In this document: piece after piece, positions 2,250 through 57,043 of the stretch
Position numbering within the stretch: position 1 is the stretch's first letter
Layout: each line of letters begins with the position of its first letter
Assembly (NCBI RefSeq): GCF_001908275.1
Contig: NZ_CP018620.1
Span: forward strand, 4,526,001 to 4,590,000
Direction: 5' to 3'
From: Paenibacillus xylanexedens
Lineage (GTDB): Bacteria > Bacillota > Bacilli > Paenibacillales > Paenibacillaceae
Length of the DNA: 64,000 nucleotides
Notes under the pieces: generated by a model
The model's input: only the letters and a program-made list of their open reading frames with translations
Told to the model about the DNA's origin: nothing
Databases searched by the model: none
Position numbers and translations under genes: made by a program

Positions 2250-2299
2250 CGGAGTTTATTTGATATGTCTATTGATGTGCTTGTAAGGAGGTGCTCAGA

Positions 2300-12214: not shown

Positions 12215-12249
12215 GCATGAAACGTGTAATCCAACAGGAGGGCGAAATC

Positions 12250-35864: not shown

Positions 35865-35975
35865 TTGTACTTGCTTTGCTTGCTTCTAAGCCGGTTTTTA
35901 AGACTTACGCGAAATGCGCTTGATTTTTTCAACAATTCTATCGATTGACGTTTTTCTTTTAAGGAGGTGATCGCT

Positions 35976-38900: not shown

Positions 38901-41900
38901 ATTGATCCGGACGAGATAAAAGCACGTTGCAACACCAAACGATTAACTGCGGATCAATGCTACAAAATTTACGAACAAGGTGGTCTCAACTATGGACTCG
39001 CCCATCGGTTGTTGGTTGAGTTAAACGTGGGAGAAGACGAGGTGTTAGGACAGCTTCGCCTGCCTTCTATACTAAAACATGAAATGCAATCCTATGTACT
39101 GCATCCGGCCATCCTGGACGGGGCATTACAATCCGCGATCGGGCTGTGGATGGAGGACAAGGAGGGAAGAGAAGGAAAAGAGCTGGAAAACGCAAATGCT
39201 ATGCTGCCCATTCCCTACGCCATGGATGAAATTCAGGTTCTGGGCCCCTGCACTGAAGAAATGTGGGCTCATGTGCGTTACAGTTCTGATTCCGTTTCAT
39301 CCGCTGCGGATACCATGCCTAAGCTGAATATTGATTTGTTCTCCAGTACCGGGGTTCCATGTGTTCTTATTCAGGGACTTAGTTGCAGAGCATTGAAGAA
39401 CGGTACAGTCCCGGGGGATGTCTCGGGGGATGAGCTGCATGGGCGGGAAACGGCCATGTTGGTACCTCGTTGGGAAGAAACCGCCGCTGTCCTTAAGAAT
39501 TGGAACCACCCTTATGACAGGCATATCGTAATGCTGGCTGAACCTTGGGCCGAACTGGCGGAGGAAATAAAGGAAAGACCGAAGCGAGAGCAAATACCAA
39601 CCGAGATCGTAGCGCTTGGAACCGAAAAGGTTGCTGACATTCACAACGTTGGTGCAAGCTCCAAACGTTTTGCATCTGCTTCTACCCAAGTACTCCACGT
39701 ACTTCAACAACTGGTGAGCAGTCCATCCAACGCTGAGAATGTGCTTATTCAGCTGCTGTACAGCCGTGAAGATCATTTTCAGCTGTATAGCGGATTAACA
39801 GGATTGCTGCGAACGGCGGCACTGGAAAATCCCCGAATTCATGTTCAGTTCATTGAAGATAGGGAAGAGGGAGAGGGATATTCAGAATCGAAGAGCCGGC
39901 CTCGAGAACCGCGTAACGCCAAGCGTGCTGCCGAACTCATAAAGGCCAACCGGGAGTCTGAGGATGTATATATCGGCTACGACGGCCCACAACGACAAGT
40001 GCTTCACTGGAAAGCCCTTCATCTGCCTGCTGAGACGGATGCCATGCCTTGGAAGAATGGCGGGGTGTACCTTATTACAGGAGGGGCTGGTGGCCTTGGC
40101 CATATTTTTGCCCGTGAGATTGCCTCTAAGGTTGTCAACGCAACGCTGATTTTGACAGGCAGATCGGACATATCAGCGAATCAGGAGCAAGCGTGGGAAC
40201 CCCTGAAAACAAATGGTACCACGATCATCTATCGCCAAGGGGATATATCCCGGGAAAAAGATACATCGGAGCTTGTTGCTTATATTCAGCATAGCTTCGG
40301 CCGTCTGGATGGAATCATCCATAGCGCAGGTTTAACGGAAGATCAGTACATTTTGAACAAAACAAAAGCCGAAATGGAGAAGGTGCTGGCTCCGAAAGTT
40401 GCTGGCACCTTTCATTTGGATGAAGCAACCCGGGCGATGAAGCTGGACTTTTTTATCCTGTTCTCTTCCATGTCGGGTGTATATGGAAATCCGGGCCAAT
40501 GCGATTACGCTGCGGCCAACGGATATATGGGCAGCTATGCACAGTATCGTCATCAGTTAATGCATGCCGGTAAACGGCAAGGAAGGACCCTGGCCATCCA
40601 CTGGCCGTTATGGAAAGATGGCGGCATGCATTTAAGCCCTGCTGAAGAGAAGGGATTATGGGAAAGTACGGGAATGCGTCCACTGGATCTTGAAGCAGGT
40701 ATTACGCTGCTGTACAGAGCTTTTCAGTCCACAGAATGTGAAATCGTTGGAGTACAAGGGGACATTCCGAAGCTGATTTCCAGCCTGGAGGCACGTTGGA
40801 ATATGAACCGTACAACGCGGGATACCCCATTCGTATCAGAAGCAGATGCCATGTCTGTGCTGCAAAAATTGGCTGCGGAACTGCTTGGTGTGGGACCAGA
40901 TGAGATTAGCCGCGAAGCGGATTGGCTTGAATGCGGGCTGGACCAGCCTCAATTAACGCTCTTGGCCCAAAGGTTGAACGAGCAATGTGGGCTGGATCTG
41001 AGTCATGTTTTATTTGTGGAATATCCAACGCTGCAATCGGCTTCGGCATTTCTGAGCCAGCGATATCCAAACGCTTTCCCGTCAGCGCCGTTAGCTCCCG
41101 AGAGTGAATCATTACCGCGTACAAGTCAAACCAGCCTGCCAACGGATCGTTTGACGAAGCAAGCGCAGACCACAGCAGCAGATAATATACTGGCGGAAGC
41201 ATTGGATACTTTTCTGAAAAAGGCCTTGTCATCGGTACTCAAAGTGCCTGCAGATCAGATTGTAAGCTACGCCCGACTGGAAGAGTATGGTATAGACTCG
41301 ATTAGCATTACCCAATTGACGGATCAGCTCGAGGGTACTTTCGGGCCATTGTCCAAAACACTGCTTTTTGAATATCAGACCCTCAAAGATTTGAGTGGAT
41401 ATCTGATCAAGACCCACCGCAATATCGTCAATCGCCTGATTTCGGTTCCTGCGCAGCCACATGAAGAACGTAAGGAACGTTCGGAGAAGTCTAAGACTGC
41501 CCGATCCGGCCTGCAACACCCTTCATTTCGTGCATTCCAGCGTCCAGCTCAGCGCCCCTCGGCGCCAGCAGATGCTCAAGTGCGCTCACTTGCCAAGGAT
41601 ATCGCCATTATTGGCCTGTCCGGACGTTATCCCCAGGCGGACGATCTGGAACAATTTTGGGAGAACTTGATGCAAGGCAGGGACAGTGTCACTGAAATTC
41701 CGTTGGATCGCTGGGATTACAGGCTACATATGCACCATGCGGACCCTAATTCACCGAAGCCTGGCAGCAAGTGGGGAGGCTTCCTCCAGGGCGTGGATCG
41801 TTTTGATCCCTTGTTTTTCCATATCTCGCCCAGAGAAGCACAGATGATGGACCCGCAGGAGCGGCTGTTCCTGGAAACGGCGTATGAAGCGATTGAAGAT

Positions 41901-44900
41901 GCAGGGTATACACCGGAGGGGCTCGCTTCTGCAACCGGAGATACTTGGGGAAACAGGGTTGGTGTGTACGTTGGAGTCATGTACGAGGAATACCAGCTGT
42001 ACGCCGCCCAGGCTCAGGCCAAAGGAGATTCCTCCATTGCTTTAAGTGGCAATCCGGCATCCATCGCCAACCGAATATCGTATTATTGCAATTTCAATGG
42101 GCCAAGCATGGCTGTTGAAACGATGTGTTCCTCTTCCTTGACCGCGATTCATCTGGCCTGTCAGAGTCTTGTATTGAAGGAATGCGAAGTGGCGGTGGCG
42201 GGTGGTGTCAACGTATCGATTCATCCAAATAAGTATATTTTACTGAACCAAGGTGGCTTCCTTTCAAGTGAAGGCCGATGCAAAAGCTTTGGTGCACAAG
42301 GGGACGGCTATGTTCCTGGTGAGGGTGTCGGAGCAGTCATTCTCAAGCCGCTCAACAAGGCAATGGAAGACGGAGATCATATCTACGGGGTTATTAAAGG
42401 CAGCGCACTGAATCACGGTGGAAAAACGAATGGATATACCGTACCCAATCCGGCAGCACAGTCATGTGTCATAGGGAGAGCCATTGCTGAGGCGGACATC
42501 TCCGCCGATACCATTACCTATGTGGAGGCTCACGGGACAGGTACATCGCTTGGTGATCCGATTGAGGTTGCCGGTCTGAGCAAAGCGTTTGCAGAGTCCA
42601 CGGACCAGCAGCAGTTTTGCGCTCTCGGGTCGGTAAAATCCAATATCGGCCACGCCGAAAGTGCGGCGGGTATTGCCGGACTGACCAAAATTTTGCTTCA
42701 GCTGAAACATGGGCAACTGGTGCCCTCTCTGCATTCAGACCCGGCCAATCCGCATATCAACTTTGCGCAGACCCCGTTTCGTGTACAGCGGGATGCTGAA
42801 GCATGGAAGCCGTTGCAGCGGATGGAAAACGGCAAACGTGTCCAGATTCCCCGCAGGGCGGGCTTGTCTTCATTTGGTGCGGGTGGTTCCAATGCCCACC
42901 TGATCATTGAAGAGGCAGATTACCATCCATATGAGGGGGTAACGTTCAACGAAGCAATAAGAGGAGGAGCTGTCATCATTGTGCTCTCGGCGCGAACCCG
43001 ATCCGCTCTCAGGGAACGAGCCAGACGTTTGCTCACTGCTGTGGATGAGAAGCATCTCACCGGAGGAGCAGAGGAAGAACCGGAACGTTTGCTGGAGCGC
43101 TTGGCATTTACGCTTCAAACCGGAAGACAGGAGATGGAAGAGCGCCTCGGATTCGTAGTGCGATCCGTTCAGGAGTTGAAGGAACGTCTTCAACTTTTCC
43201 TGGGAAATGAGAACACGAACGAGCCGGTAGACGGAATAGACGGAATGTACCTCGGAAATGTCAAATCCTATCAGGCTGTGCAGGCAGCAATTGCCATGGA
43301 TGAGCATTTTGGCGAAGTCGTGAGCCGTTGGTTAAATGAAGGCCTTTACGGCAAAGTGCTGGATCTGTGGGTGAAAGGCATCAAAGCGGATTGGAGTGTT
43401 CTATACTCCACAGGACAGCCTCGTCGAATTAGTCTGCCTGGCTATCCGTTTGAGCGCGAGCGCTGCTGGTTTGAATTGCCTGAGGAAGCGGTTATCCGTG
43501 AACATGTGGATGGTCTCAACTCTCCCGTATCTGCTGGAATTCAGAAAGCAGCACCGGAGCGCCAAATGACTGCTTATCACAAAGACTGGCAGTTTGCGGA
43601 CATTGCACCCATCTCCGAGGAAAGCGATACTGTTGGAATGATTCTGATCCTTGCCAATCGGGATTCAGCGGCCCTTGCTGCGAGATTGACAAAATATTTT
43701 AAACATACGGTGGTTTTGAATGAAGAACAATTGGATGATCCGGGACGCCATTGGCTCCAAGATGAGGAACGGTTGGAGCATGGACTGACAGGTTTGATTG
43801 ATCTGACAGCATGCATGAGGCAAACCACTGTTGATGATGCTTACGAAGAACAGATCGGGCCGGGATGGTTGCAGCTTGTGCAGGACGTCATTGAAATCCA
43901 TGGTCATGAGGGGATGTTGCTGTTATTGGTGACTTGTGGCTTGGAGTCGTTCCGTAATTCGAAAGTGAATCTGGCCCACGCCTCTCGTGCGGGTCTGTTC
44001 CGCATGCTGCAATCCGAATACCGAAGCATCCAATCCAGACATCTGGATGTCGATCCGTCGGCCTCGGAAGAGGCTAAGATTGATTGCATTACAACAGAGT
44101 TCCGGCAAACAGATCGGGAACCGGAGATATGCTACCGTGATGGCAAACGCTGGCGTTCCTATATGCGTGAGTTGCCTTATGGGACGGGTATGAACAAAGA
44201 TGTTATGGAATCTTGGATCGATCCGGAACGACCTTTCCTGGAAGCAAATCAGGTGTTGTGGATTACCGGGGGTACCCGCGGCCTTGGAATGGCATGTGCC
44301 CGCCATTTCGTGAAGCATCACAACGTGAAGCGGCTGTTGCTGACTGGACGGGAAGCCATACCACAGCGGGAGGAATGGGACGCATATGCAAGCCATGACA
44401 CTGCGACGGGCGCCAAAATCAGATCCCTGTTGGAACTCGAACAACTGGGGGCCGAGGTGCTTGTTACAGATATCCCACTTACAAACGAGAACGCCATTCA
44501 GGCAGAACTGGCCAGAGTTAAGCGCTCAATGGGTCCTATTGGAGGGGTTATTCATTGTGCTGGCAACGTGGATACTGCCAATCCGGCTTTTATTCGCAAG
44601 GAGGCAGATGCCATGCAGCGGGTGCTTGATCCAAAAACAGGCGGGGTGCATACGTTGTTTCATGCGTTCAGGCATGAGCCACTGCGCTTTTTTGTGCTGT
44701 TTTCCTCCGTGTCCTCAGCGATGCCTTCACTGGGAGCAGGGCAGAGCGATTATGTGATGGCTAACGCGTATATGGACTATTTTGCCGAAGCCGCATCCCG
44801 GGGAAGTGCCATCTCTCCATTCCCGGTCATCAGTATCCAGTGGCCAAGCTGGCAGGAATCCGGTTTTGGTGCGGTCACTAGCGAAGTATATCGCCAGAGC

Positions 44901-47027
44901 GGTCTTCTCAGCATCACCGATGCGGAAGGAATGTTATGGCTGGATCGGATTATTCGGGAAAACAGGGGACCAGTAATTCTGCCGGCTGTAGTTGCATCGC
45001 AGACTGTACACAAGGGAGGGCAACAAACGGAGCATCAGGCAGAGGCATCGTTAGGTGAATCACAGCAGGTATCCATTCCGTTAATTCCACGCCCGGTGGA
45101 GCGGATGACCGCAAGCTTCACGGAGGAGCTGGAGTACAGGACACTGGCGTGGCTTAAGGCTTTGATGGCAAAAGAACTAAGATTGGATGAATCCCGGCTG
45201 GATGAAGATACCCCTTTTCAGCATTACGGAATGGATTCGATCCTGCTTGTCCAGATTCTGACGGTGATGGACCGAGAGCTGCAGCATGTTGCAACAGACC
45301 CTTCGCTGCTGCTTGAACACCCAACACTGCGCCAATTAGCAAAACATCTGGTTCGGATCTATCCCGAATCTTTGACTGACCTGTTGATGGAACCCAACTC
45401 TAAGTTGGCGGAAAATTCGACTGGAAAACCTTCCGATGTTCGTTCAATGACTTCCACTCCTCCTGTGCAACATGCTGAACCAGGTATGGATGGTCACATC
45501 GGACTGATCCAACCGAATGATGCTGCGGATGAAGCACAAGAAAAACCAGCGAAGCTGGAACAATCCAAGAAGCGGGATAAAATCGCAATTGTTGGCGTCG
45601 CCTGTCATTTTCCTGATGCCGAGAATCCGGCGCAATTCTGGTCCAATCTGCAAAAGGGCAAAGATAGCATGACCGAGATCCCGGCGGAACGCTTGAGGTT
45701 GACAGGCAGCAGCACCAATAGGACTTCCGCTTCCAGCAAGCGCATTGGGGCGTTCATTCGGGACATTGAACAGTTTGATCCGGCATTTTTCCGAATTACA
45801 GATACGCTGGCAGAACAGCTCGATCCGCTCCAGCGCCAACTGCTGGAAGTGAGCGTGGAGGCCGCCGCAGACGCAGGATACAGCCGGGAACGTTTATGGA
45901 ATTCGCAGACCGGCGTATTTGTTGGCTCCAGAGCGAGCAACTTTTCATCCAAGCTGGGAGGCAACACCAAAGATACAATCGTTGGCATCGGCCAAAACTT
46001 TATCGCTGCACATCTGTCCCATTTTTATAATCTGAAAGGTCCCAACATGGTGGTGGATACCGCTTGTTCCAGTTCACTTACCGCAGTTCATCTTGCTGTA
46101 CGAAGTCTGCTGGATGGGGAATGCGATCTCGCTTTTGCGGGCGGTGTGGACATTCTGCTTGATGATGCACCCTACGAGATGCTTGGAGCTGCCAGCGTAT
46201 TATCTCCGGATTCTCGTTGCAAAACGTTCAGTGCGGACGCAAACGGCATCGGACTGGGTGAAGGTTGCGGCGTTGTATTGCTTAAACCGTTATCGCAAGC
46301 CATCGCCGATCAGGACACGATCTATGGGGTCATCGATGGCACCTCCATCAATAACGATGGTCAAACGATGGGCATTACCACACCTAACCCGGAAGCCCAG
46401 CAGGAATTGCTGGAAAAAGCGATTTTAAATGCAGGCATTCATCCTTCCACCATCAGCTATATTGAGACACATGGAACAGGGACACTAATTGGTGATCCCA
46501 TCGAGCTTAAGGCTTTGACAGGTGTTTTTGCAAAATATACAAATCAACGCCAGTTTTGCGGCGTAGGCAGTGTCAAAAGTAATATCGGGCATCTGCTGAG
46601 CGCATCGGGCATTGCCAGCCTGATCAAGGTGTTGCTCTCGCTTGCTCACCGCGAGCTTCCGCCGACGATTCACTGCGACCAGCCCAATCCGCGATTCCAG
46701 TTCGGGGAATCTCCTTTTTATATCGTACAGCAGCACCAGCCGTGGGGAAGTGGTCCAAGCGACATACTGCGAGCAGGCATTAGTGCATTCGGACTTGGAG
46801 GCAACAACGCACACGTTATTGTAAGCAATGAAGGTATTCCTTCCGAACGCATGGTGAGCCTGCCGCTTCGTTTCCCTGATTCACCTTTTCAACGCAAGTA
46901 TTGCTGGCCACCCGTCAAGGCAACGGAATCGGTGGAGGCATCGTCCAATGTTTCAGCTGCGTCGTCGATGCAACAGCTACCGGAGCATTCGGAGCAATCG
47001 AGCTTTTTTGATTTCATCAAGCTATGA
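35976..47027 (+). CDS. Trans-AT polyketide synthase: ACP (module 5), modules 6 and 7, KS of module 8
   Basis: About 3683 residues. It opens with a docking-like segment (LYRKIQQGKLSDQQAAEQL), then ACP5 (Ser88); KS6 (200-630, Cys377); DH6 (838-1140, DHRIGQERILP, Gly replaced by Gln); KR6 (1150-1600, YAAAN); a dead ACP (GLDQ, Gln1657 where the phosphopantetheine Ser should be); working ACP6 (Ser1775, YGIDSI); KS7 (1875-2310, Cys2051); KR7 (2530-3000, TGGTRGLG, YVMAN) with no DH; ACP7 (Ser3088); and KS8 (3200-3625, Cys3364), a divergent KS ending the protein at FFDFIKL. KR7 lacks the Asp of the B-type LDD motif that the other KRs retain, so its alcohol should have the opposite configuration. AAGGAGGTG (35961-35969) precedes TTG 35976 by six bases. 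GTG 35967 lies inside the Shine-Dalgarno sequence, so TTG is preferred as start. Confidence 0.92.
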   Translation: MEDQLSTLYRKIQQGKLSDQQAAEQLQRLLSESGEQESSLRETLHEEKEDDTSEKAIRYVKKILSSSLMLPERQIDAHAPLENYGIDSVMVMKLTDQLEQQFGPLSKTLFYEYQNIAELAGYFMSHHRERLEQLTGVQAKSNSDVQLRNSELESSTIRKSESPNSFNKRQPSAGSRRKIPAATSAGGESISEEHVHSKSLDIAIIGMSGRYPKSSNLAQFWENLKHGKDCITEIPEDRWDYRIHTEMNGSKGKHSGKWGGFLDGVDRFDPLFFQISPKEAERIDPQERLFLECVYETLQDAGYTREQAAGPDAPPDQIGNVGVFAGVMYQEYQLYGAEARIAGKEPFALNGNPASIANRVSYFCNFHGPSMVIDTMCSSSLTAIHLACQSLSKKECQTAIAGGVNVSVHPNKYVMLTQGQFLSSKGRCESFGEGGDGYVPGEGVGAVMLKPLGRAIADGDHIYGVIKGTAVNHGGKTNGYTVPNPARQAEVIETAVAEAGIDIADISYIEAHGTGTSLGDPIEITGLTQAFRKGNAADNKCAIGSAKSNIGHCESAAGIAGLTKVLLQMQHRQLVPSIHADPPNPHIQFDKTPFTVQKQLSDWDRITIDSGDSTREVPRIAGISSFGAGGSNAHIIVQEYCPEQSDMLLAEQDKPAKQQALIVLSARNEEQLRELCERMLTALRSNRYQEEQLASIAYTLQTGREMMNMRLGIVTGSLQELSSKLESYCSGDQDMDDMYVGYAGDAQQPLSILSTDADMSHTLMNWITKRKFGKLLEFWVKGLNVDWNLLHNGFRHCKISLPTYPFAKERHWIPGEPSVEFQMKGKSSHNGYSGHIPFIHPLLHENKSNLSEQKYVTVLTGQEFYLNDHRIGQERILPGAAYLEMAHAAVSDALGEQQGENVAVFLKNHVWMRPLVVRETPVSLHIRLQASLEEQPIQYELYSEMSADGSSENRVHSSGYASIVSLEPELVAAMAIDPDEIKARCNTKRLTADQCYKIYEQGGLNYGLAHRLLVELNVGEDEVLGQLRLPSILKHEMQSYVLHPAILDGALQSAIGLWMEDKEGREGKELENANAMLPIPYAMDEIQVLGPCTEEMWAHVRYSSDSVSSAADTMPKLNIDLFSSTGVPCVLIQGLSCRALKNGTVPGDVSGDELHGRETAMLVPRWEETAAVLKNWNHPYDRHIVMLAEPWAELAEEIKERPKREQIPTEIVALGTEKVADIHNVGASSKRFASASTQVLHVLQQLVSSPSNAENVLIQLLYSREDHFQLYSGLTGLLRTAALENPRIHVQFIEDREEGEGYSESKSRPREPRNAKRAAELIKANRESEDVYIGYDGPQRQVLHWKALHLPAETDAMPWKNGGVYLITGGAGGLGHIFAREIASKVVNATLILTGRSDISANQEQAWEPLKTNGTTIIYRQGDISREKDTSELVAYIQHSFGRLDGIIHSAGLTEDQYILNKTKAEMEKVLAPKVAGTFHLDEATRAMKLDFFILFSSMSGVYGNPGQCDYAAANGYMGSYAQYRHQLMHAGKRQGRTLAIHWPLWKDGGMHLSPAEEKGLWESTGMRPLDLEAGITLLYRAFQSTECEIVGVQGDIPKLISSLEARWNMNRTTRDTPFVSEADAMSVLQKLAAELLGVGPDEISREADWLECGLDQPQLTLLAQRLNEQCGLDLSHVLFVEYPTLQSASAFLSQRYPNAFPSAPLAPESESLPRTSQTSLPTDRLTKQAQTTAADNILAEALDTFLKKALSSVLKVPADQIVSYARLEEYGIDSISITQLTDQLEGTFGPLSKTLLFEYQTLKDLSGYLIKTHRNIVNRLISVPAQPHEERKERSEKSKTARSGLQHPSFRAFQRPAQRPSAPADAQVRSLAKDIAIIGLSGRYPQADDLEQFWENLMQGRDSVTEIPLDRWDYRLHMHHADPNSPKPGSKWGGFLQGVDRFDPLFFHISPREAQMMDPQERLFLETAYEAIEDAGYTPEGLASATGDTWGNRVGVYVGVMYEEYQLYAAQAQAKGDSSIALSGNPASIANRISYYCNFNGPSMAVETMCSSSLTAIHLACQSLVLKECEVAVAGGVNVSIHPNKYILLNQGGFLSSEGRCKSFGAQGDGYVPGEGVGAVILKPLNKAMEDGDHIYGVIKGSALNHGGKTNGYTVPNPAAQSCVIGRAIAEADISADTITYVEAHGTGTSLGDPIEVAGLSKAFAESTDQQQFCALGSVKSNIGHAESAAGIAGLTKILLQLKHGQLVPSLHSDPANPHINFAQTPFRVQRDAEAWKPLQRMENGKRVQIPRRAGLSSFGAGGSNAHLIIEEADYHPYEGVTFNEAIRGGAVIIVLSARTRSALRERARRLLTAVDEKHLTGGAEEEPERLLERLAFTLQTGRQEMEERLGFVVRSVQELKERLQLFLGNENTNEPVDGIDGMYLGNVKSYQAVQAAIAMDEHFGEVVSRWLNEGLYGKVLDLWVKGIKADWSVLYSTGQPRRISLPGYPFERERCWFELPEEAVIREHVDGLNSPVSAGIQKAAPERQMTAYHKDWQFADIAPISEESDTVGMILILANRDSAALAARLTKYFKHTVVLNEEQLDDPGRHWLQDEERLEHGLTGLIDLTACMRQTTVDDAYEEQIGPGWLQLVQDVIEIHGHEGMLLLLVTCGLESFRNSKVNLAHASRAGLFRMLQSEYRSIQSRHLDVDPSASEEAKIDCITTEFRQTDREPEICYRDGKRWRSYMRELPYGTGMNKDVMESWIDPERPFLEANQVLWITGGTRGLGMACARHFVKHHNVKRLLLTGREAIPQREEWDAYASHDTATGAKIRSLLELEQLGAEVLVTDIPLTNENAIQAELARVKRSMGPIGGVIHCAGNVDTANPAFIRKEADAMQRVLDPKTGGVHTLFHAFRHEPLRFFVLFSSVSSAMPSLGAGQSDYVMANAYMDYFAEAASRGSAISPFPVISIQWPSWQESGFGAVTSEVYRQSGLLSITDAEGMLWLDRIIRENRGPVILPAVVASQTVHKGGQQTEHQAEASLGESQQVSIPLIPRPVERMTASFTEELEYRTLAWLKALMAKELRLDESRLDEDTPFQHYGMDSILLVQILTVMDRELQHVATDPSLLLEHPTLRQLAKHLVRIYPESLTDLLMEPNSKLAENSTGKPSDVRSMTSTPPVQHAEPGMDGHIGLIQPNDAADEAQEKPAKLEQSKKRDKIAIVGVACHFPDAENPAQFWSNLQKGKDSMTEIPAERLRLTGSSTNRTSASSKRIGAFIRDIEQFDPAFFRITDTLAEQLDPLQRQLLEVSVEAAADAGYSRERLWNSQTGVFVGSRASNFSSKLGGNTKDTIVGIGQNFIAAHLSHFYNLKGPNMVVDTACSSSLTAVHLAVRSLLDGECDLAFAGGVDILLDDAPYEMLGAASVLSPDSRCKTFSADANGIGLGEGCGVVLLKPLSQAIADQDTIYGVIDGTSINNDGQTMGITTPNPEAQQELLEKAILNAGIHPSTISYIETHGTGTLIGDPIELKALTGVFAKYTNQRQFCGVGSVKSNIGHLLSASGIASLIKVLLSLAHRELPPTIHCDQPNPRFQFGESPFYIVQQHQPWGSGPSDILRAGISAFGLGGNNAHVIVSNEGIPSERMVSLPLRFPDSPFQRKYCWPPVKATESVEASSNVSAASSMQQLPEHSEQSSFFDFIKL

Positions 47028-47046
47028 GAAGGGAGTGACGCGGATC

Positions 47047-50000
47047 ATGACATTGCCTGCAACCGAATCATTTTTACAGCGATTGCGCCACAGCGACTAT
47101 TTCGTGAGAGATCATCGTGTTCACGGCGTCTGCACCCTTCCAGGTGTGGTGCTGCTGGATATGGTGTACCGACTGAGCGGCAGCCATCTGCGTACAACCT
47201 CCATTGAACTTCGGGATATCGTGTTTATACAGCCGATTGTCACTTCGACCGATTTTGATGTGGATATCATGCTGACGTTGTCCATGAAGATGGATGAGGG
47301 TCAGGTCACCATCCATAGCCGCAAAGTACCTAAAGACGGTGAGCCGCCTTCATCTGATGTGCTGAATATGGAATGCAAGCTGTATTTGCTCAACGGGAAG
47401 GGAGCTGTACAACCTGTACAAGCTTTAAAGCCTACACACCTGTTACCTTCCAAAGACACAGACGGGCTTCAGACGTGGGATATGGATCAGATCTATCAAC
47501 TCGCCCGACAGGCGGATATACAGCATTTTTCTTTTATGAAAAACAACGGAGATGTCTACAGACAAGACCAAATGGAGTGGATGGATATCCGGCTTAGCAG
47601 CCTGGCCGAGCAGTATCTGGACAAGTTCCACGCTCATGTGGCCCTGTTGGACGGGGCGACCTTTGCCGGGTCGTCCTTCCGCCTGGGAAAGGTCGGCGGT
47701 CTGGATGAAGAAGTTCCGCCATACATTCCGTTCATGATTGAACGATTTGTTATATACGACCGTTTTCCAGCTGAGATTCGTACGTTTACTGAACAAACAC
47801 CAAGTGATCTTTCCGGTGGGGATATCATCTCCCGCAGCATTGCTGTTACAGATCGAGAGGGCAGATTGCTTGCGGAGTTTGTACATTTGAAGGCAAAAAG
47901 AGTTCGCCATGCCGCATCCATTACCGGGCTGACAAACACGATGACAACTGGACGCAACGACAAACCAACTTCTGAACCGGCAATAGCTGAAAGTTCCGAA
48001 TGGGCAAAGACAACTGCAATGTCTGCGGGCTCCCAAGACCAGATCCGAACCATGATTTCGAGTTATGTGAAAGCTGAAATCGCACGCATGCTGCACATTT
48101 TACCTGAGGCAGTGGATGAGCGGACAGGCTTCTATGAGCAGGGACTAGATTCCATGCACCTGCTTGAGCTGGTGAAACGGCTGGAAAACCGGGTGAACAT
48201 GGAACTTTATCCAACGCTGCTGTTTGAGCACTCTTCCGTGCAGGCGTTGACCGAATACCTGCACACCCATTGTTCCGACGCCTGGAATGAGGCAGCAGCG
48301 GTGTCGGAACGTGTGAACTTGAATACGGCTCCGTCCCAAAGCAGTCATTCGACTGATGAACAACCTGCAACGCATTCGGAAATACCAGCAACAGCCAGAG
48401 AAATCGAGGGAAATGGAGAACCTGTGTGTTATGAACCTAAATGGATTGAAACACAGGATATCTATGAGGCTGAATCTGCCCGACACACGATAGCAGATGG
48501 AAAAATGCCTCAGTCCGATCTCACCCCGTACCGGATCGTTGTTCTCTATGGCAACTATCCGGCTTTTGCTGCCAAGATGGAGCTTCAGTCTGACGTATAC
48601 GAGGTTCATCAATTGCCTGATCATTTGTCCATGGACGCTGATCTGTACCGCCAGAAGGTAACCGCGTTATACGGAATGATCCAGGCAAAAGCAATTCACC
48701 CAAATGCGGGCAGACGAATCGTTCTTCAAGTGCTGTCGGATTCCCGTGACACGGGAGGATACATTCACGGATTTGAAGGTCTGGTAAAAACAGCCGCGAT
48801 GGAGCTTCCAGCCTTTGGGGCTCAATTAATCAGAATGGATCTGCATGAAAGCTCCATGAATGAGACCTTGATTCGTCAGCTTCGGCTCGAAGCCGAAAAC
48901 ATCTCATCAGGGTCCGCTTTCTGCATATGGTACAAAGGAGACTCCCTTCAGCGGCATGTTCGCAAGCTGGTGGAGATACCTGTTCCGGGGCCCGCATTGG
49001 AAAAAACCTATAAGCCTGACGGAATCTATCTTATTACCGGCGGCATGGGCGGTCTGGGGTATGCGCTGGCCATGCATCTTTCCCGTAAATGCAGATGCAA
49101 GCTGGTTCTTATCGGACGTTCTCCGCTGAGTGAGAACATTCAGCGCAAACTGAATCCGCTGCGCATCAACGGTGCAGAAGCCATGTATATTCAGGCCGAT
49201 ACAACCGTTCTAGCCGAGATGAAGCAGGCTATCCTGCAGATTCGGGATCAGTATGGCGAAATCACGGGGGTATTTCACTGTGCTGGAACTGCCAAAGATC
49301 AGTTGATGCTGCAAAAGCCTTTGTCCGACCTGGAGCAGGTGTTAAAGCCCAAAATAGATGGACTCTGGAATCTGGAGCAGGCCTTAAATGATCTAAGGCC
49401 GGAGTTCACGGTTGCGTTTTCCTCCCTGTCAGCCATTGTAGGCAACAAAGGGCAGGCTGATTACGCTGTGGCCAACAGCTGTATGGACAGACTTTTGGTG
49501 AATCATCAGGAGAGAGGTGGAACAGAAGGAGCAATTCCACGCCAGGTTACGATTAACTGGCCGTTATGGGCAGATGGCGGCATGCAAGTGAATGATCATA
49601 TTCGGAGCAGCATGTATACGTCCTCAGGTTCAATGCCGCTACCACTGGCTGAGGGCATAGCGCTTATTGACCGGATTATTGCACAGGATGTTTCGCAGGT
49701 TGTACTTGTATACGGGAATAAATCCCGCATTCAGTCCGTTATGGGAGACGACATGGCCATTCATTTGCCGCCGCCATCTGATCCGGAAGATATTGCTGTC
49801 ATTGGCATGGCGGGAAGGTATCCCTCGGCAAACAACATGGACGAATTGGCCCGGATATTGAAGGAGGGACGAGATTGTATCACGCCCATGCCGGATGAAC
49901 GCTGGGCGGGGCTGCATCTTACGTATTCCGCTTCTGAATATTACCCGGCTGGCGGATTTCTGGACATGATCGATGACTTTGACCCGGCCTTCTTCCAAAT

Positions 50001-53000
50001 CTCGCCGCTTCAAGCCGAAAGGATGGACCCACAGGCACGTTTGTTTTTGCAAGCGGCCTGGACAGCCTGTGAGGATGCAGGCTTTGCTATTGAACGTGAC
50101 AAGCATCATGATGCATCAGCAGCCAAGCGGAATGTCGGTGTATTTGCTGGCGTGTTCTGGAACCATTATGAACTGCTTGGCGCAGCCATGACGCAGCAAG
50201 GCATTCCTACAGCCATGGGTAGCAATGCTTCAGCCATCGCCAATCTGGTTTCTTACCACCTGAATTTCCATGGTCCATCCATCGCTGTAGACAGTATGTG
50301 TTCATCCTCCCTGACAGCAATACATTTGGCCTGCGAGAGCATTCGACATGGACAGAGCCATTATGCCATAGCAGGGGGTGTGAATCTGGTCACCCATCCC
50401 CATAAGTATGTATTTCTGAAACAGGCCAAGTTTTTGTCATCGGACGGAAAATGTCGCAGCTTTGGCAAGGATGGGGACGGCTATGTGCCAAGTGAAGGGG
50501 TAGGCGCTGTCCTGCTCACAACGGTGGCTGAAGCCCGCAAGCAAGGTTATCCGGTCTATGGCGTCATTAAGGGTTCGGCTCTGAATCATGCTGGCAAAAC
50601 ATCCGGAACGACGGTGCCAGATCCAGTGGCCCAATCGGAAGTCATTACAGATGCACTCGCGGCAGCAGACGTTGAGCCAGGAACCATCGGATATATCGAA
50701 GCCCACGGAACCGGAACGTCACTGGGTGACCCTATTGAAATTCAGGGGCTGGAGCGAGCCTTTCGAAACAGCCGCAATCCGGGCCAAAACTGTGCTGTCG
50801 GTTCCCTAAAGTCCAACATTGGACATCTAGAGGCAGCGGCAGGCGTCGCCGGGCTAAGCAAGCTTATCCTGCAAATAAAGCACAGGGAGCTGTTTCCTTC
50901 GCTGCATGCTGAGGAGCTGAACCCGCTGATTCCGTTTGAGAATACCTGCTTCCACGTGCAGCGGACAAGCGAGCGTTGGGAGCGCCGTCATGGAAAACAG
51001 AATGGGCGCTATGCGGAGTGGCCTGTTCGTGCCGGGTTGAGTTCTTTTGGCGCAAGCGGAAGCAATGCACATCTGATCGTAGAGGAATATATTCCAACTG
51101 CCGTCTCATGGACAGATCGTTCTCCATTAGATGCGTATTCCGATGAAGCGGAATCTTCAGGGAATGGTGAAGTGGTTCTTCCGATCTCGGCCAGAACACA
51201 GGAAAGATTGATCGAATACGCTCGCCAAGTTCGTTTTTATTTGGAGAACAGGGGTCTGTCTGAGCGCCTAATAGATATCGCCTACACGTTTCAGCTTGGA
51301 AGAACGGACATGAAATACAGGGTTGCTTGGACGGGCAGCAGCCACAGTGAACTGGTGGAACAGATCGATCAGTTCCTGAAAGGCCAGTCATCATTACAAC
51401 AACATTACAGTGAAACACCTTATGAAATGCCTTCAATGAAAGATCATTCTTCACTCGAGAGGCTTCATCAATGGGCTACATTGTGGGAGCAGGGACAGAC
51501 AGTGGACTGGACAGCTTTGTATGATGATCTTCAGAAGAAGCCAACTATTGTTCGTGTACCCACGTATCCTTTTGCCAGAAATCGTTACTGGATTCAGGCT
51601 GAAGATCAATCACTTGGAGAAACAACGAGGGAAAAGGGATCGCAATTGAACCGTGCGGAAACATCCTCTTCCGAAGTTGAAGGCGCGGGCATCGTTCAGC
51701 ATATGAATGAAAAATCCAACCCTGTTACGGGATCTGCAATGACGCCTTCGTCTCAGGGAAATCAGGGGAAAGAACAGGTTCTATCCTTATTATCCCAAAC
51801 GGTGTCTTCCCTGTTAAAAGTCAGTATCTACGATTTGGACAGTGATACGGAATGGGCAGAATACGGTTTTGATTCCATTCTGTTCACAGAGCTCGCGGAT
51901 CGGTTGAATCGCGACCATGGATTGGGTTTGACACCCGCCATCTTTTTTGAGCATGGCACTATTCGCGAGTTGGCAGCTCATCTGCTGCAAGGTCATCCCA
52001 CTAAGTGGAAACAGCCTTCTGGCGGCAGAACGGCACCTCAACCCGAATCGCTGAATGATATGTCTCATTCTGTGCCAGGAGCATCCGAAAGGGGAGAACC
52101 GCTGCAAACTTCATTGCGGTCAACGGCTTTAGAAGAGGAGAAACACACATCTGCCGGTTCCCATACAGGTACAGCCAGCCAGCTTAATTCGGGTTCAGAC
52201 CAGCTGTCTTCTCCCGAGCCAATAGCCATTGTGGGTATTAGCGCCAAGTTTCCGATGGCCGATAACGTGGAGCAATTTTGGCATAATCTGCTTGATGGCA
52301 AAGACTGCATTTCGGAGATTCCAGAGGAACGCTGGCGCTGGCAGGATTATATGGGTGATCCGCTTAGAGAGAAAGGCAAAACCAACGTAAAACATGCGGG
52401 ATTTATAAGCGGAATCAGTGAGTTCGATCCATTGTTTTTTGGCATTTCTCCCAAGGAAGCCCTGCACATGGACCCGCAACAGCGCTTGCTGATGATGCAT
52501 GTGTGGAAAGTGATTGAAGATGCAGGTTATGCACCCTCAGACCTGTCAGGGTCCGCCATGGGACTGTTCATTGGCACAGGCAGCAGCGGATATAATGTCA
52601 TGCTGGCCCAGTCGAATGAAGCAGTCGAGGCATACTCCGTCACAGCCACCGTTCCTTCGGTCGGCCCTAATCGGATGAGCTACACACTGAACATACACGG
52701 TCCTAGCCAGCCTGTCGAAACGTCCTGCTCCAGCTCCCTGGTTGCCATTCATCGGGCCGTTCAAGCCATTCGAAATGGGGATTGCGAGACGGCTGTAGCC
52801 GGTGGTGTAAATACGATCCTGTCCGTGGATGCTCATATCAGTCTGACCAAAGCGGGCATGCTTAGCGCGGACGGGCGTAGCAAAACCTTTTCAAGCGAGG
52901 CAAACGGTTACGGCCGTGGAGAAGGGGTTGGAATGATTTTTCTGAAGAAATTGAGTGATGCTCAGCGCGACTATGACCACATTTACGGCTTGATCCGTGG

Positions 53001-54498
53001 TAGCGGTGAAAATCACGGCGGAAAGGCAGGCTCACTTACTGCTCCCAACCCTAAGGCACAAACAGCGCTGCTGAAATCCGTGTATGCTCGGGCGGGAATT
53101 GATCCTTCCACTATAAATTATATTGAAGCACATGGCACAGGCACACCACTTGGTGATCCAATTGAGATCAATGCGCTCAAGACAGTATTTCAGGAAACGA
53201 GGGCAGGCTTATCACCCACAGGGCAGACTTCCACTTCAGGACAGTCAACCCCATACTGTGGCGTCGGCTCTGTCAAAACAAATATCGGTCATCTGGAGCT
53301 TGCTTCCGGCATTGCTGGAATAATTAAGGTATTGTTGCAGATGAAACACCGCAAGCTTGTCCCCAACCTGCATGCAGAGCAGCTCAGTCCGTATGTCCAG
53401 CTTGAGCACAGCCCGTTCTATGTTGTCAGACAGAAGCAGGAATGGGAGAGAATCAAAGACAGCAATGGCAACGAAATGCCCCGTAGGGCAGGAGTGAGCT
53501 CTTTTGGTTTTGGGGGTTCCAATGCCCACGTTATTCTGGAGGAATATATACCACCACGACAGCATGATGAGGTGACCAGTTCTGAATCCGAGTTGGCTCC
53601 TGTTGCAATCGTGCTATCGGCCAAAAGCAAGGAGCGGCTCAGGGAACAAATGATCCAGTTGTCGGCTGTCCTGCTTCGCAATGAGGAGGAGGAGGGTACT
53701 TCTCAACAGCTTCGCCGCATTGCCTGTACACTTCAGACAGGAAGACAAGCGATGGAATACCGTGCAGGCTTCATAGCCGCATCAATTACAGAGCTAAAAT
53801 CCTTGCTGGACGGTTACGTTCAGGACACGCACCTGTGGACCGATTCGGATGAATCCGTGCATGCGCAGCGTTCATCGGAATCTGCGAAAGGTCACAAGCT
53901 CCATCTCGGCTCCATTGCTGCTCACAAACGGACAGCAGCACTGTTCAGAGAGGATGAAGAACTCGGCGAAGCGCTGCAAAAATGGATTATACGTCGCAAA
54001 TACAATAAATTGCTTGAACTGTGGGTGCAGGGTGTAGAGATCCAGTGGGAGCTGTTATATACAGAGGATCGTCCAGAGCGGATATCCCTTCCAACCTATC
54101 CGTTCACACCCGAGAAATACTGGGTTGGAATGAAGAGTACTGTGACGGAGGATTCATTTGAAGCAAGTAACGAAGAGATGGAAACCGTACCCGTTGCCAA
54201 AGCTGAAGTTATCGGATCAACAGCCCCGAATCCTTCGGTTGAAAGTGATGTCAGAAGCATTATTGCAGCTCTGCTGGGGATCCCACCAGACGACATGGAC
54301 GAGCATCGTTTGCTGGAAGATTACGGAATGGACTCTGTGCTGGCGCTTCAGCTTCTTCATCATCTCCAGGCCCGGATTTCCTCTGAAATTGGTATGGAGG
54401 ATCTGAATAAATGCCATACCTTGCAGGACGTCATCAGCGTTTCCCTGAACCCAATCCATCCAGAACACCAGAGGAAACTGGTACCGGACACACCCTGA
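47047..54498 (+). CDS. Trans-AT polyketide synthase: DH-ACP-KR (module 8), KS-ACP (module 9), KS-ACP (module 10)
   Basis: 2483 residues, the last PKS protein. It starts directly with DH8 (1-290, His23 in DHRVHGVCTLP); its second motif is HVALLDGATF, so the Asp remains but the usual Gln is lost. Then ACP8 (Ser369, QGLDSM) and KR8 (470-900, TGGMGGLG, YAVAN), so the ACP lies before the KR, an order found in some trans-AT dehydrating modules. KS9 (915-1350, Cys1085), ACP9 (Ser1610), KS10 (1724-2160, Cys1894) and ACP10 (Ser2430) follow with no processing domains. Both KSs keep HGTGT and NIGH, so both should elongate and leave beta-keto groups. There is no thioesterase, condensation or reductase domain for release. 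The start is ATG 47047 with AAGGGAG at 47029-47035. KS8 of this module is on the preceding protein. Confidence 0.92.
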   Translation: MTLPATESFLQRLRHSDYFVRDHRVHGVCTLPGVVLLDMVYRLSGSHLRTTSIELRDIVFIQPIVTSTDFDVDIMLTLSMKMDEGQVTIHSRKVPKDGEPPSSDVLNMECKLYLLNGKGAVQPVQALKPTHLLPSKDTDGLQTWDMDQIYQLARQADIQHFSFMKNNGDVYRQDQMEWMDIRLSSLAEQYLDKFHAHVALLDGATFAGSSFRLGKVGGLDEEVPPYIPFMIERFVIYDRFPAEIRTFTEQTPSDLSGGDIISRSIAVTDREGRLLAEFVHLKAKRVRHAASITGLTNTMTTGRNDKPTSEPAIAESSEWAKTTAMSAGSQDQIRTMISSYVKAEIARMLHILPEAVDERTGFYEQGLDSMHLLELVKRLENRVNMELYPTLLFEHSSVQALTEYLHTHCSDAWNEAAAVSERVNLNTAPSQSSHSTDEQPATHSEIPATAREIEGNGEPVCYEPKWIETQDIYEAESARHTIADGKMPQSDLTPYRIVVLYGNYPAFAAKMELQSDVYEVHQLPDHLSMDADLYRQKVTALYGMIQAKAIHPNAGRRIVLQVLSDSRDTGGYIHGFEGLVKTAAMELPAFGAQLIRMDLHESSMNETLIRQLRLEAENISSGSAFCIWYKGDSLQRHVRKLVEIPVPGPALEKTYKPDGIYLITGGMGGLGYALAMHLSRKCRCKLVLIGRSPLSENIQRKLNPLRINGAEAMYIQADTTVLAEMKQAILQIRDQYGEITGVFHCAGTAKDQLMLQKPLSDLEQVLKPKIDGLWNLEQALNDLRPEFTVAFSSLSAIVGNKGQADYAVANSCMDRLLVNHQERGGTEGAIPRQVTINWPLWADGGMQVNDHIRSSMYTSSGSMPLPLAEGIALIDRIIAQDVSQVVLVYGNKSRIQSVMGDDMAIHLPPPSDPEDIAVIGMAGRYPSANNMDELARILKEGRDCITPMPDERWAGLHLTYSASEYYPAGGFLDMIDDFDPAFFQISPLQAERMDPQARLFLQAAWTACEDAGFAIERDKHHDASAAKRNVGVFAGVFWNHYELLGAAMTQQGIPTAMGSNASAIANLVSYHLNFHGPSIAVDSMCSSSLTAIHLACESIRHGQSHYAIAGGVNLVTHPHKYVFLKQAKFLSSDGKCRSFGKDGDGYVPSEGVGAVLLTTVAEARKQGYPVYGVIKGSALNHAGKTSGTTVPDPVAQSEVITDALAAADVEPGTIGYIEAHGTGTSLGDPIEIQGLERAFRNSRNPGQNCAVGSLKSNIGHLEAAAGVAGLSKLILQIKHRELFPSLHAEELNPLIPFENTCFHVQRTSERWERRHGKQNGRYAEWPVRAGLSSFGASGSNAHLIVEEYIPTAVSWTDRSPLDAYSDEAESSGNGEVVLPISARTQERLIEYARQVRFYLENRGLSERLIDIAYTFQLGRTDMKYRVAWTGSSHSELVEQIDQFLKGQSSLQQHYSETPYEMPSMKDHSSLERLHQWATLWEQGQTVDWTALYDDLQKKPTIVRVPTYPFARNRYWIQAEDQSLGETTREKGSQLNRAETSSSEVEGAGIVQHMNEKSNPVTGSAMTPSSQGNQGKEQVLSLLSQTVSSLLKVSIYDLDSDTEWAEYGFDSILFTELADRLNRDHGLGLTPAIFFEHGTIRELAAHLLQGHPTKWKQPSGGRTAPQPESLNDMSHSVPGASERGEPLQTSLRSTALEEEKHTSAGSHTGTASQLNSGSDQLSSPEPIAIVGISAKFPMADNVEQFWHNLLDGKDCISEIPEERWRWQDYMGDPLREKGKTNVKHAGFISGISEFDPLFFGISPKEALHMDPQQRLLMMHVWKVIEDAGYAPSDLSGSAMGLFIGTGSSGYNVMLAQSNEAVEAYSVTATVPSVGPNRMSYTLNIHGPSQPVETSCSSSLVAIHRAVQAIRNGDCETAVAGGVNTILSVDAHISLTKAGMLSADGRSKTFSSEANGYGRGEGVGMIFLKKLSDAQRDYDHIYGLIRGSGENHGGKAGSLTAPNPKAQTALLKSVYARAGIDPSTINYIEAHGTGTPLGDPIEINALKTVFQETRAGLSPTGQTSTSGQSTPYCGVGSVKTNIGHLELASGIAGIIKVLLQMKHRKLVPNLHAEQLSPYVQLEHSPFYVVRQKQEWERIKDSNGNEMPRRAGVSSFGFGGSNAHVILEEYIPPRQHDEVTSSESELAPVAIVLSAKSKERLREQMIQLSAVLLRNEEEEGTSQQLRRIACTLQTGRQAMEYRAGFIAASITELKSLLDGYVQDTHLWTDSDESVHAQRSSESAKGHKLHLGSIAAHKRTAALFREDEELGEALQKWIIRRKYNKLLELWVQGVEIQWELLYTEDRPERISLPTYPFTPEKYWVGMKSTVTEDSFEASNEEMETVPVAKAEVIGSTAPNPSVESDVRSIIAALLGIPPDDMDEHRLLEDYGMDSVLALQLLHHLQARISSEIGMEDLNKCHTLQDVISVSLNPIHPEHQRKLVPDTP

Positions 54499-54601
54499 TT
54501 AGTACCAAGTTGAATAAAGTTCCAGCGAGAAAGTCTCGGCGAGGAAATGCATGTAATCCATACTTACCAATATAAAAAGCGAGAAGAAGGAGCGGATCAC
54601 C

Positions 54602-55117
54602 ATGTGGATTGGATTTTTGTTAATTATCATCTCACTCATTCGTATACCATCGGTTGTTATTGCCATGCGTAACGAGAAAAAGATCGTTGCAGGAGGCGGC
54701 ACCGAGTACGGCAACCTGAACAGCAAAGTGTTATTTGTGCTGCAAAACCTGATTTATCTGAGCTGCATTGTATACGCCTTTATTTACGATGTGCAGTTTA
54801 ATGTGTTGACCGTAATTGGTCTTGTCGTGTATGTGTTTGCCCTTTGCTGTCTTATCTATGTTATTCGCAAACTCAGCCCTTTTTGGACATACAAGCTATA
54901 CATTGCCAGAGACCACAAACTGGTGCAAAGCTCGCTATTCCGGCTGGTGCGCCATCCCAATTATTACCTGAACATTATTCCCGAGCTTATCGGTTTTGCG
55001 CTGATTTCTCAAGCCTGGCCTGTATTTGTGCCTTTGTTTATCCTTCATCTCATTACACTGTTCAACCGGATTAATCTGGAGGAAAAAGTGATGAAACAAA
55101 CGTTCACTCAGTACTAG
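54602..55117 (+). CDS. ICMT-family membrane methyltransferase (isoprenylcysteine methyltransferase/YpbQ-like)
   Basis: A 171-residue integral membrane protein with about four or five hydrophobic helices and the family signature RHPNYYLNIIPELIGFAL, which binds SAM at the membrane face, plus a C-terminal Glu (INLEEK). Relatives include isoprenylcysteine carboxyl methyltransferases and the Bacillus BpsB/YpbQ enzyme, which O-methylates type III PKS alkylpyrones (family knowledge). Position immediately after a PKS that ends in two unreduced KS-ACP modules and has no thioesterase suggests it methylates a 4-hydroxy-2-pyrone, or alternatively a free carboxylate, of the product (inference). Start ATG 54602, AAGGAG upstream. 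The gene is about 100 bases after the PKS stop with no terminator between, so it is in the same operon. Confidence 0.8.
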   Translation: MWIGFLLIIISLIRIPSVVIAMRNEKKIVAGGGTEYGNLNSKVLFVLQNLIYLSCIVYAFIYDVQFNVLTVIGLVVYVFALCCLIYVIRKLSPFWTYKLYIARDHKLVQSSLFRLVRHPNYYLNIIPELIGFALISQAWPVFVPLFILHLITLFNRINLEEKVMKQTFTQY

Positions 55118-56461: not shown

Positions 56462-56515
56462 AGTACATAATGAATGGGTTTTGATTTGTCCATAAAAAAG
56501 ATCATGGGAGGATCT

Positions 56516-57043
56516 ATGAACTGGTACAGCTTTTTTGTACAGAGTGGGAAAGAAGAAGAAATTAAACTTTTTATGGATCGATTTTATGCGCTACAGCACT
56601 TGAGTTGTCTAGTACCCAAACGAATGATTCCGGAACGAAAGCAGGGAAAGACTCGTCATTGCACCAAAGTATTGTTTCCAGGCTATATTTTTATCCAAAC
56701 CGGACAGATTCAAGATTTATATTACAACATCAAAAAAACGCCATATATTTTGTATATGGTCAATGGCGGCATTCACAAGCATGATCAGGCTGCCAATTTT
56801 TTCACTCCGATTCCCAAAGAACAGATGGACTGGCTCATCCAGCTATGCGGTGTCAACGGAACAATGGGATACTCGGATATCATTCTCGGCGGGAACCAAA
56901 TCAAAGTAACGTCCGGACCACTCCTCGGCAAAGAAGCGATGATACGGAAAATTGATAAACGCAAGTCAAGGGCCAAAATTGAGGTGCAGTTGCTGAACGA
57001 GGTCAAATTGATCGATGTTGGCATCAATGTCTTACTTGCTTGA
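56516..57043 (+). CDS. loaP: LoaP-type NusG paralogue, processive antiterminator of long biosynthetic operons
   Basis: 175 residues. The NGN domain occupies the first ~110 residues (MNWYSFFVQSGKEEE, LVPKRMIPERKQGK, LFPGYIFIQT), followed by a C-terminal KOW domain (IKVTSGPLLGKEAMIRKIDKRKSRAKIEV). Length and the VPKR/ERK region fit LoaP rather than the housekeeping NusG or RfaH. By published work on Bacillus velezensis, LoaP lets RNA polymerase read through terminators in the difficidin and macrolactin operons and depends on a leader hairpin. Here the obvious target is the 54-kb operon just upstream. Start ATG 56516 with GGGAGG four bases upstream; ATG 56474 and ATG 56504 are less likely. The gene lies outside the operon between two terminators, apparently with its own promoter. 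Confidence 0.85.
   Translation: MNWYSFFVQSGKEEEIKLFMDRFYALQHLSCLVPKRMIPERKQGKTRHCTKVLFPGYIFIQTGQIQDLYYNIKKTPYILYMVNGGIHKHDQAANFFTPIPKEQMDWLIQLCGVNGTMGYSDIILGGNQIKVTSGPLLGKEAMIRKIDKRKSRAKIEVQLLNEVKLIDVGINVLLA

Follow-up and report, generated by a model that had tools for sequence, protein, structure and literature searches.

A possible pyrone-releasing terminus without a thioesterase in a trans-AT polyketide synthase of Paenibacillus xylanexedens

We analysed a 64,000-nucleotide stretch of chromosomal DNA from the 7.1 Mb genome of Paenibacillus xylanexedens (contig NZ_CP018620.1, positions 4,526,001 to 4,590,000 of the forward strand; hereafter the window), which carries a modular polyketide synthase (PKS) cluster, and concentrated on the end of its last synthase gene, pksE, and on the methyltransferase gene that follows. 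The cluster is a single operon-like run on the plus strand, encoding a protein with two acyltransferase (AT) domains and an enoyl reductase (ER), a FAD-dependent monooxygenase, five PKS proteins, an isoprenylcysteine carboxyl methyltransferase (ICMT)-type enzyme, a cytochrome P450 and the antiterminator LoaP. The pksE open reading frame (ORF) extends from 46948 to 54498, and because the orthologues begin at a matching methionine its true start is probably the ATG at 47047. Its product has the order DH8-ACP8-KR8-KS9-ACP9-KS10-ACP10 (DH, dehydratase; ACP, acyl carrier protein; KR, ketoreductase; KS, ketosynthase), and Pfam detects only one DH and one KR, and no thioesterase (TE), in the pksE protein. 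KS9 with its C-terminal linker (49786-51594) is followed by ACP9 (51763-52002), so that module 9 lacks both DH and KR, and then by KS10 with its linker (52216-54126) and the terminal carrier ACP10 (54223-54447), about 17 residues beyond which the protein ends. The catalytic Cys/His/His residues are intact in KS9 (DSMCSSS at 50293-50313, EAHGTGT, NIGH) and in KS10 (ETSCSSS at 52720-52740, EAHGTGT, NIGH), and both ACP9 and ACP10 keep the phosphopantetheine serine. An earlier reading of this DNA (the original prediction) had described KS9-ACP9-KS10-ACP10 as having intact KS residues and no KR, DH or TE. The first part is confirmed, with KS9 beginning at 49786 and not at 49791; the second stands within the four domains and for the absence of a TE from pksE, with the qualification that KR8 (from 49027), whose YxxxN site is intact, directly precedes KS9, such that a KR borders the bare stretch.

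The ICMT-type gene (54602-55117) lies 103 bp downstream of pksE and is directly followed by the P450 gene (55171-56370, PF00067). Its product matches PF04140 with 73.7 bits against a cut-off of 24 (E 1.7e-20) and contains an RHPNYY motif, as expected from the RHPNY-type membrane methyltransferase originally described. It scores far under the cut-off of the protein-S-isoprenylcysteine O-methyltransferase model NF040696 (50.9 of 160) and also matches PEMT, phospholipid methyltransferase. An AlphaFold2 model (pLDDT 88) is mostly helical, and its top fold match in the PDB is ICMT, a weak match with E 0.52. This is the sole PF04140 match of its genome; ICMT-family genes are frequent in Bacilli, being present in 202 of 299 genomes.

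The methyltransferase was used as a query against 5.8 billion proteins, 394 genomes of the family and a collection of 84,980 species. The protein search returned 105 matches, six with at least 61% identity and the others with no more than 52%; matches are present in 17 of the 394 genomes, and the species collection yielded 66 loci. Six of these 66 are immediately flanked by KS-ACP-KS-ACP on the upstream side and by a P450 on the downstream side, namely P. xylanexedens (whose enzyme is 99% identical to that of the window), P. ehimensis, P. oleatilyticus, P. nuruki, P. tyrfis and P. polymyxa ISL-58. Neither feature was found in the DNA examined at the remaining 60 loci, eight of which cover less than 5 kb upstream, and two Lentisphaerota loci have just weak KS matches (24%) some 7 kb off. 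Together with the window and two further genomes, G114 and G383, there are nine distinct Paenibacillus clusters with the terminus, the ICMT-type gene and the P450 (ten tabulated rows, two of which, polymyxa_L028 and G107_L177, represent a single contig of 193,054 bases). The P450 directly follows the methyltransferase gene in all six PKS-linked loci as well as in G114 and G383, and the bare terminus is present in 7/7 of the orthologues that enter the KS tree described below, and again in G114 and G383. The association of terminus, methyltransferase and P450 exceeds chance. Copies of the FAD monooxygenase, 70-99% identical, are present in all eight related genomes searched, and the domain order of the whole line is identical in the three clusters for which the complete line was read (window, P. 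nuruki and P. ehimensis), TE excepted.

The original prediction treated the terminus as TE-less, which is correct for the window and for seven of the nine clusters; in the other two (P. nuruki and G383) a TE follows ACP10. In P. nuruki the pksE orthologue extends into a TE domain directly after ACP10 (PF00975, 107.8 bits). The lack of an in-line TE is thus variable among orthologous clusters and not fixed. Since the TE varies while the rest is constant, the pattern fits a release that is independent of an in-line TE, and seven TE-less clusters with the same terminus are what would be expected of a chain able to detach unaided, although they do not prove it. A rooted tree built from trimmed sequences of the DH8-KS9 block, in which P. 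nuruki has a long branch, gives support of 75/70 for the branching order among P. nuruki, the P. ehimensis group and the group of the window; the alternative orders are not rejected (approximately unbiased (AU) test p values of 0.24 and 0.19), and the tree is compatible with gain as well as with loss of the TE. In the TE-bearing P. nuruki cluster a LipP1-family esterase gene is located after LoaP (L024:12675-13625), with a similar gene in G383; no LipP1-type esterase was seen after LoaP in the window.

The history of module 9 was examined in a quick tree of 134 KS domains, each labelled by the domains of the preceding module; the labels come from phmmer searches with the window's own domains, so that divergent DH or KR domains elsewhere may have escaped detection. 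All seven KS9 orthologues share a clade (SH-aLRT 100) with the KSs of three other Paenibacillaceae trans-AT lines (G277, G269 and G256), and these sister KSs also come after DH-ACP-KR. In the three relatives the next module is KS-DH-KR-ACP and is followed by a KS10-type KS. The window's ACP9 best matches the ACP located after this DH-KR pair, at 52-57 bits compared with 14-24 bits for the other ACPs printed. Because KS9, ACP9 and KS10 all match a block that has DH-KR in its module 9, a derived deletion is the simplest account, and the bare module is best read as having lost this pair. No ICMT match was obtained in any of the three relatives, even at E 10 (0/3), so that the missing DH-KR pair and the methyltransferase gene coincide. 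Ser stands immediately before the KS10 cysteine in all seven TE-less clusters; the position is occupied by Ala in both TE-bearing clusters, which belong to a single lineage, and in 23 of 23 relatives hand-picked from the KS10 clade. Since P. nuruki and G383 are close kin, the coincidence of a TE with Ala at this position is effectively one event, and the change from Ala to Ser hints, as a small sign, at adaptation of KS10.

Upstream of pksE, the trans-acting AT-AT-ER protein (2291-5602; Acyl_transf_1 twice, NMO, FabD_helical_ins) presumably provides malonyl supply and enoyl reduction. Acyl_transf_1 is confined to this gene, and Pfam finds none in pksA to pksE; a discrete AT gene together with synthases that lack AT domains identifies a trans-AT line. 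The FAD-dependent monooxygenase (5657-6898; FAD_binding_3, squalene epoxidase model) is a candidate polyene epoxidase. The four preceding synthase genes encode KS1-DH-KR (pksA, 6947-12214), cMT-ACP-KS2-DH-KR (pksB, 12217-18144; cMT, C-methyltransferase), cMT-ACP-ER-KS3-DH-KR-ACP-KS4-DH-KR-cMT-ACP-KS5-DH-KR (pksC, 18186-35864) and ACP-KS6-DH-KR-ACP-ACP-KS7-KR-ACP-KS8 (pksD, 35967-47027). PksA opens directly with KS1 (CASS, not CSSS), and neither a loading module nor a starter ACP was detected in the window. The first of the tandem ACPs in pksD (40848-41069) has Gln in place of the phosphopantetheine Ser (GLDQ) beside a live ACP, and this dead carrier is conserved as GFDQ in P. nuruki and P. ehimensis. 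LoaP (56474-57043; NF033641, 189.2 bits, cut-off 125) ends the cluster in the window and in P. nuruki and is at the front in P. ehimensis (L173).

KS1 to KS10 all retain the Cys, HGTGT and N-x-GH residues. That KS8 might be a non-elongating KS0 of a dehydrating bimodule was considered and rejected, as its catalytic residues are intact (ETHGTGTLIGD, NIGH) and the same KS type is present in an 11-KS line of Bacillus velezensis pDMB05-1 which, from its gene order, we take to be the macrolactin synthase. Macrolactin is a C24 lactone, with which 11 elongations by 11 KSs would agree, and since two of those KSs are of the KS8 type, KS8 probably elongates. If all ten KSs in the window elongate, the predicted chain would have 22 carbons plus three C-methyls, with a start resembling tiglyl, a single reduced alpha-methyl unit, an extended conjugated polyene and a diketo end.

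A plausible explanation of these features, and the one we tentatively regard as the best at close to even confidence, is that the chain leaves the TE-less terminus as a 2-pyrone that is then methylated by the ICMT-type enzyme to a 4-methoxy-2-pyrone. In this scheme modules 1-8 would build a C-methylated polyene. As modules 9 and 10 both lack KR and DH, they would likely leave a 3,5-diketo thioester, a known pyrone precursor, on ACP10. The enol oxygen at C5 would attack the C1 thioester, and the chain would come off ACP10 without a TE as a 4-hydroxy-6-polyenyl-2-pyrone, the 4-hydroxyl of which would be methylated by the neighbouring enzyme; oxidation of the polyene would fall to the FAD monooxygenase and the P450, and the TE of P. 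nuruki and G383 would assist or replace self-release. The corresponding history would be that an ancestral KS9-DH-KR-ACP9 lost its DH-KR pair, turning an olefin-forming step into a keto-forming, pyrone-competent end. Of the grounds on which pyrone release was originally proposed, the unreduced terminal modules, the lack of a release domain and the methyltransferase (present in 9/9 clusters) stand, whereas specific kinship with BpsB does not; the check originally suggested, a KS tree, came out against a beta-keto clade for KS10.

Several observations weigh against pyrone release, and the first concern KS10. Among KSs retrieved by similarity to KS10, and not by their upstream domains, the KS10 orthologues share a clade of 14 rows (SH-aLRT 97) with seven other KSs, each of which follows DH-KR-ACP, and of the 25 non-orthologous KSs nearest to KS10, 24 follow DH-KR-ACP and one follows a module in which only an ACP was detected. 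Judged by this placement, KS10 is not in a clade accepting beta-keto chains, for which the original prediction had proposed to look, and belongs instead to an olefin-type clade. Such a position fits the derived deletion, but it is also compatible with reduction of module 9 in trans, which the adjacency of KR8 to KS9 makes possible; KS10 may therefore still expect an olefin, with KR8 and DH8 acting on ACP9. With only module 10 leaving a ketone, the chain would then end as a beta-keto-gamma,delta-enoyl thioester, which would exclude a pyrone; after hydrolysis the ICMT-type enzyme would methylate the enol to a beta-methoxyacrylate-like end, or the beta-keto acid would decarboxylate. We consider this route unlikely. 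The intact YxxxN site of KR8 and the TE of the P. nuruki and G383 lines are also consistent with this route, while the Ser before the KS10 cysteine in 7/7 TE-less clusters, against Ala in 23/23 relatives, and the failure of profile scans to find a TE, hydrolase or esterase in the window cluster argue against it.

A second group of observations bears on release as a free acid. The window genome has seven PF00975 matches, none of them in the window; two are in frames of 1341 and 1117 residues, and two more occupy frames of a size typical of a stand-alone TE (254 and 247 residues; C1:6028348-6029031 and C1:5753960-5754622), each more than 1 Mb from the cluster, which are candidates for release or editing in trans. 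One of these two also matches the P. nuruki TE, at E 0.036. Among the loci compared, the closest to the P. nuruki TE is that of a B. velezensis line (34.6%) which, from its gene order, we take to be the bacillaene line, and the bacillaene line releases an acid. Furthermore, ICMT proper methylates a carboxylate. A carboxylic acid could be released, with the in-line TE acting in P. nuruki and G383 and an unlinked stand-alone TE here, and converted by the ICMT-type enzyme to a methyl ester. This is the chemistry for which the PF04140 family is named, and the top fold match noted above agrees with it, weak as it is. We nevertheless find this route quite unlikely, as the window cluster itself has no esterase or TE, and a 3,5-diketo acid is expected from established chemistry to lactonise or decarboxylate.

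The third group concerns the methyltransferase, whose methyl acceptor is inferred from linkage alone. The original prediction had called it a relative of YpbQ/BpsB, the latter a pyrone O-methylating enzyme, and in the specific sense this does not hold. Thirty Bacilli PF04140 loci were compared, of which 24 could be aligned (ORF picking may have lost the gene in the other six), and the BpsB-type enzymes are 23-32% identical to that of the window. In a quick tree, 21 BpsB-like rows (E <1e-9) are separated from 57 others by a branch with SH-aLRT 100. A type III PKS neighbour (Chal_sti_synt) is present at all four BpsB-type loci scanned, and the neighbour of the window enzyme is a type I PKS. A crude scan of the 66 ICMT loci with a weak motif for type III PKS found none. 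An orthologous relationship with BpsB was accordingly rejected. A role for the methyltransferase at the start of the chain, as a malonyl-ACP O-methyltransferase as in aurantinin, was also rejected, since Art28 is BioC-like and not ICMT-like (PMC8302727). Close ICMT relatives from P. timonensis, P. mellifer and P. barengoltzii (L026, L027 and L041, approximately 9000-10500) each follow a gene of a single family coding for 309-369 aa, identified as CTP_transf_1 (CdsA-like) in P. timonensis, and the two genes would make up a putative membrane pair. Although the nearest non-PKS relatives (58-61% identical) adjoin such a CTP_transf_1-type gene, the protein also matches PEMT and the P450 gene is directly downstream, it is improbable that the methyltransferase has nothing to do with release and instead modifies a hydroxyl that the P450 or the FAD monooxygenase introduces or, as a means of self-protection, a membrane lipid, given that it is paired with the bare terminus in 9/9 clusters and absent from the three relatives whose module 9 retains DH-KR.

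If release as a methylated pyrone is correct, deletion of one domain pair would have rewired chain release in a modular PKS, and the step would be visible in living relatives: the state before it (G277, G269 and G256), the TE-less state after it (seven clusters) and the TE-bearing state after it (P. nuruki and G383) could be compared directly. It would be a natural case of altered release chemistry, a known bottleneck of PKS engineering, would extend the known O-methyltransferases of modular polyketides to membrane enzymes of the ICMT type, and would suggest that bacteria have a family of polyene alpha-pyrones. To our knowledge there is no earlier TE-optional 4-methoxy-2-pyrone polyene line of trans-AT PKSs, and none of the titles or abstract openings among the literature matches listed (30 of 196 in one case) describes a trans-AT cluster with a terminus of this kind, subscription journals and supplementary files being outside the search.

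Among bacterial systems, the G277, G269 and G256 lines share KS8-DH-ACP-KR and then homologues of KS9, ACP9 and KS10 in the same order, and differ in the retained DH-KR of module 9 and in the lack of an ICMT match. They also continue into a beta-branching cassette with a stand-alone KS, an HMG-CoA-synthase-type (HMGS) gene and two enoyl-CoA hydratase (ECH) genes (identified with Pfam in G277). The KS8-KS9-KS10 block followed by an HMGS/ECH cassette in L117, L119 and L120 represents block exchange between pathways. The putative macrolactin synthase of B. velezensis pDMB05-1 has the KS8 type followed by DH-ACP-KR, twice, but its final gene is annotated as an alpha/beta fold hydrolase and the product of macrolactin synthase is a macrolactone. 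BpsA/BpsB of Bacillus, which make alkylpyrones, resemble the present system in placing a PF04140-superfamily enzyme beside a polyketide synthase, and differ from it in the low identity, separate clade and type III partner described above. A polyketide of P. polymyxa E681 with absorbance at 299/312/327 nm is described as unstable (PMC8193733) and is not tied to this cluster.

The closest likeness of logic is to fungal systems. The aurovertin, citreoviridin and asteltoxin PKSs, each a single KS-AT-DH-cMT-KR-ACP set, make alpha-pyrone polyenes (PMC12312803), which are then modified by an O-methyltransferase at the pyrone hydroxyl and by a flavin monooxygenase on the polyene. The gene sets CtvA-D, AurA-D and AstA-D thus combine a TE-less PKS, a pyrone O-methyltransferase and a flavin monooxygenase (PMC12312803), a combination predicted here as well. 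In contrast to these, the window encodes a ten-module bacterial trans-AT line, a membrane methyltransferase of the ICMT type and a P450; as the parts lists are alike and the synthases differ in kind, the likeness is one of logic only and not of membership. A further component of the fungal pathways is an epoxide hydrolase (CtvD, AurD and AstD). It is possible, although we would lean against it at present, that a bacterial line has independently reached the citreoviridin/aurovertin logic through DH-KR deletion, self-release, an optional TE and recruitment of an ICMT-type enzyme for pyrone O-methylation; the resemblance would be one of convergence.

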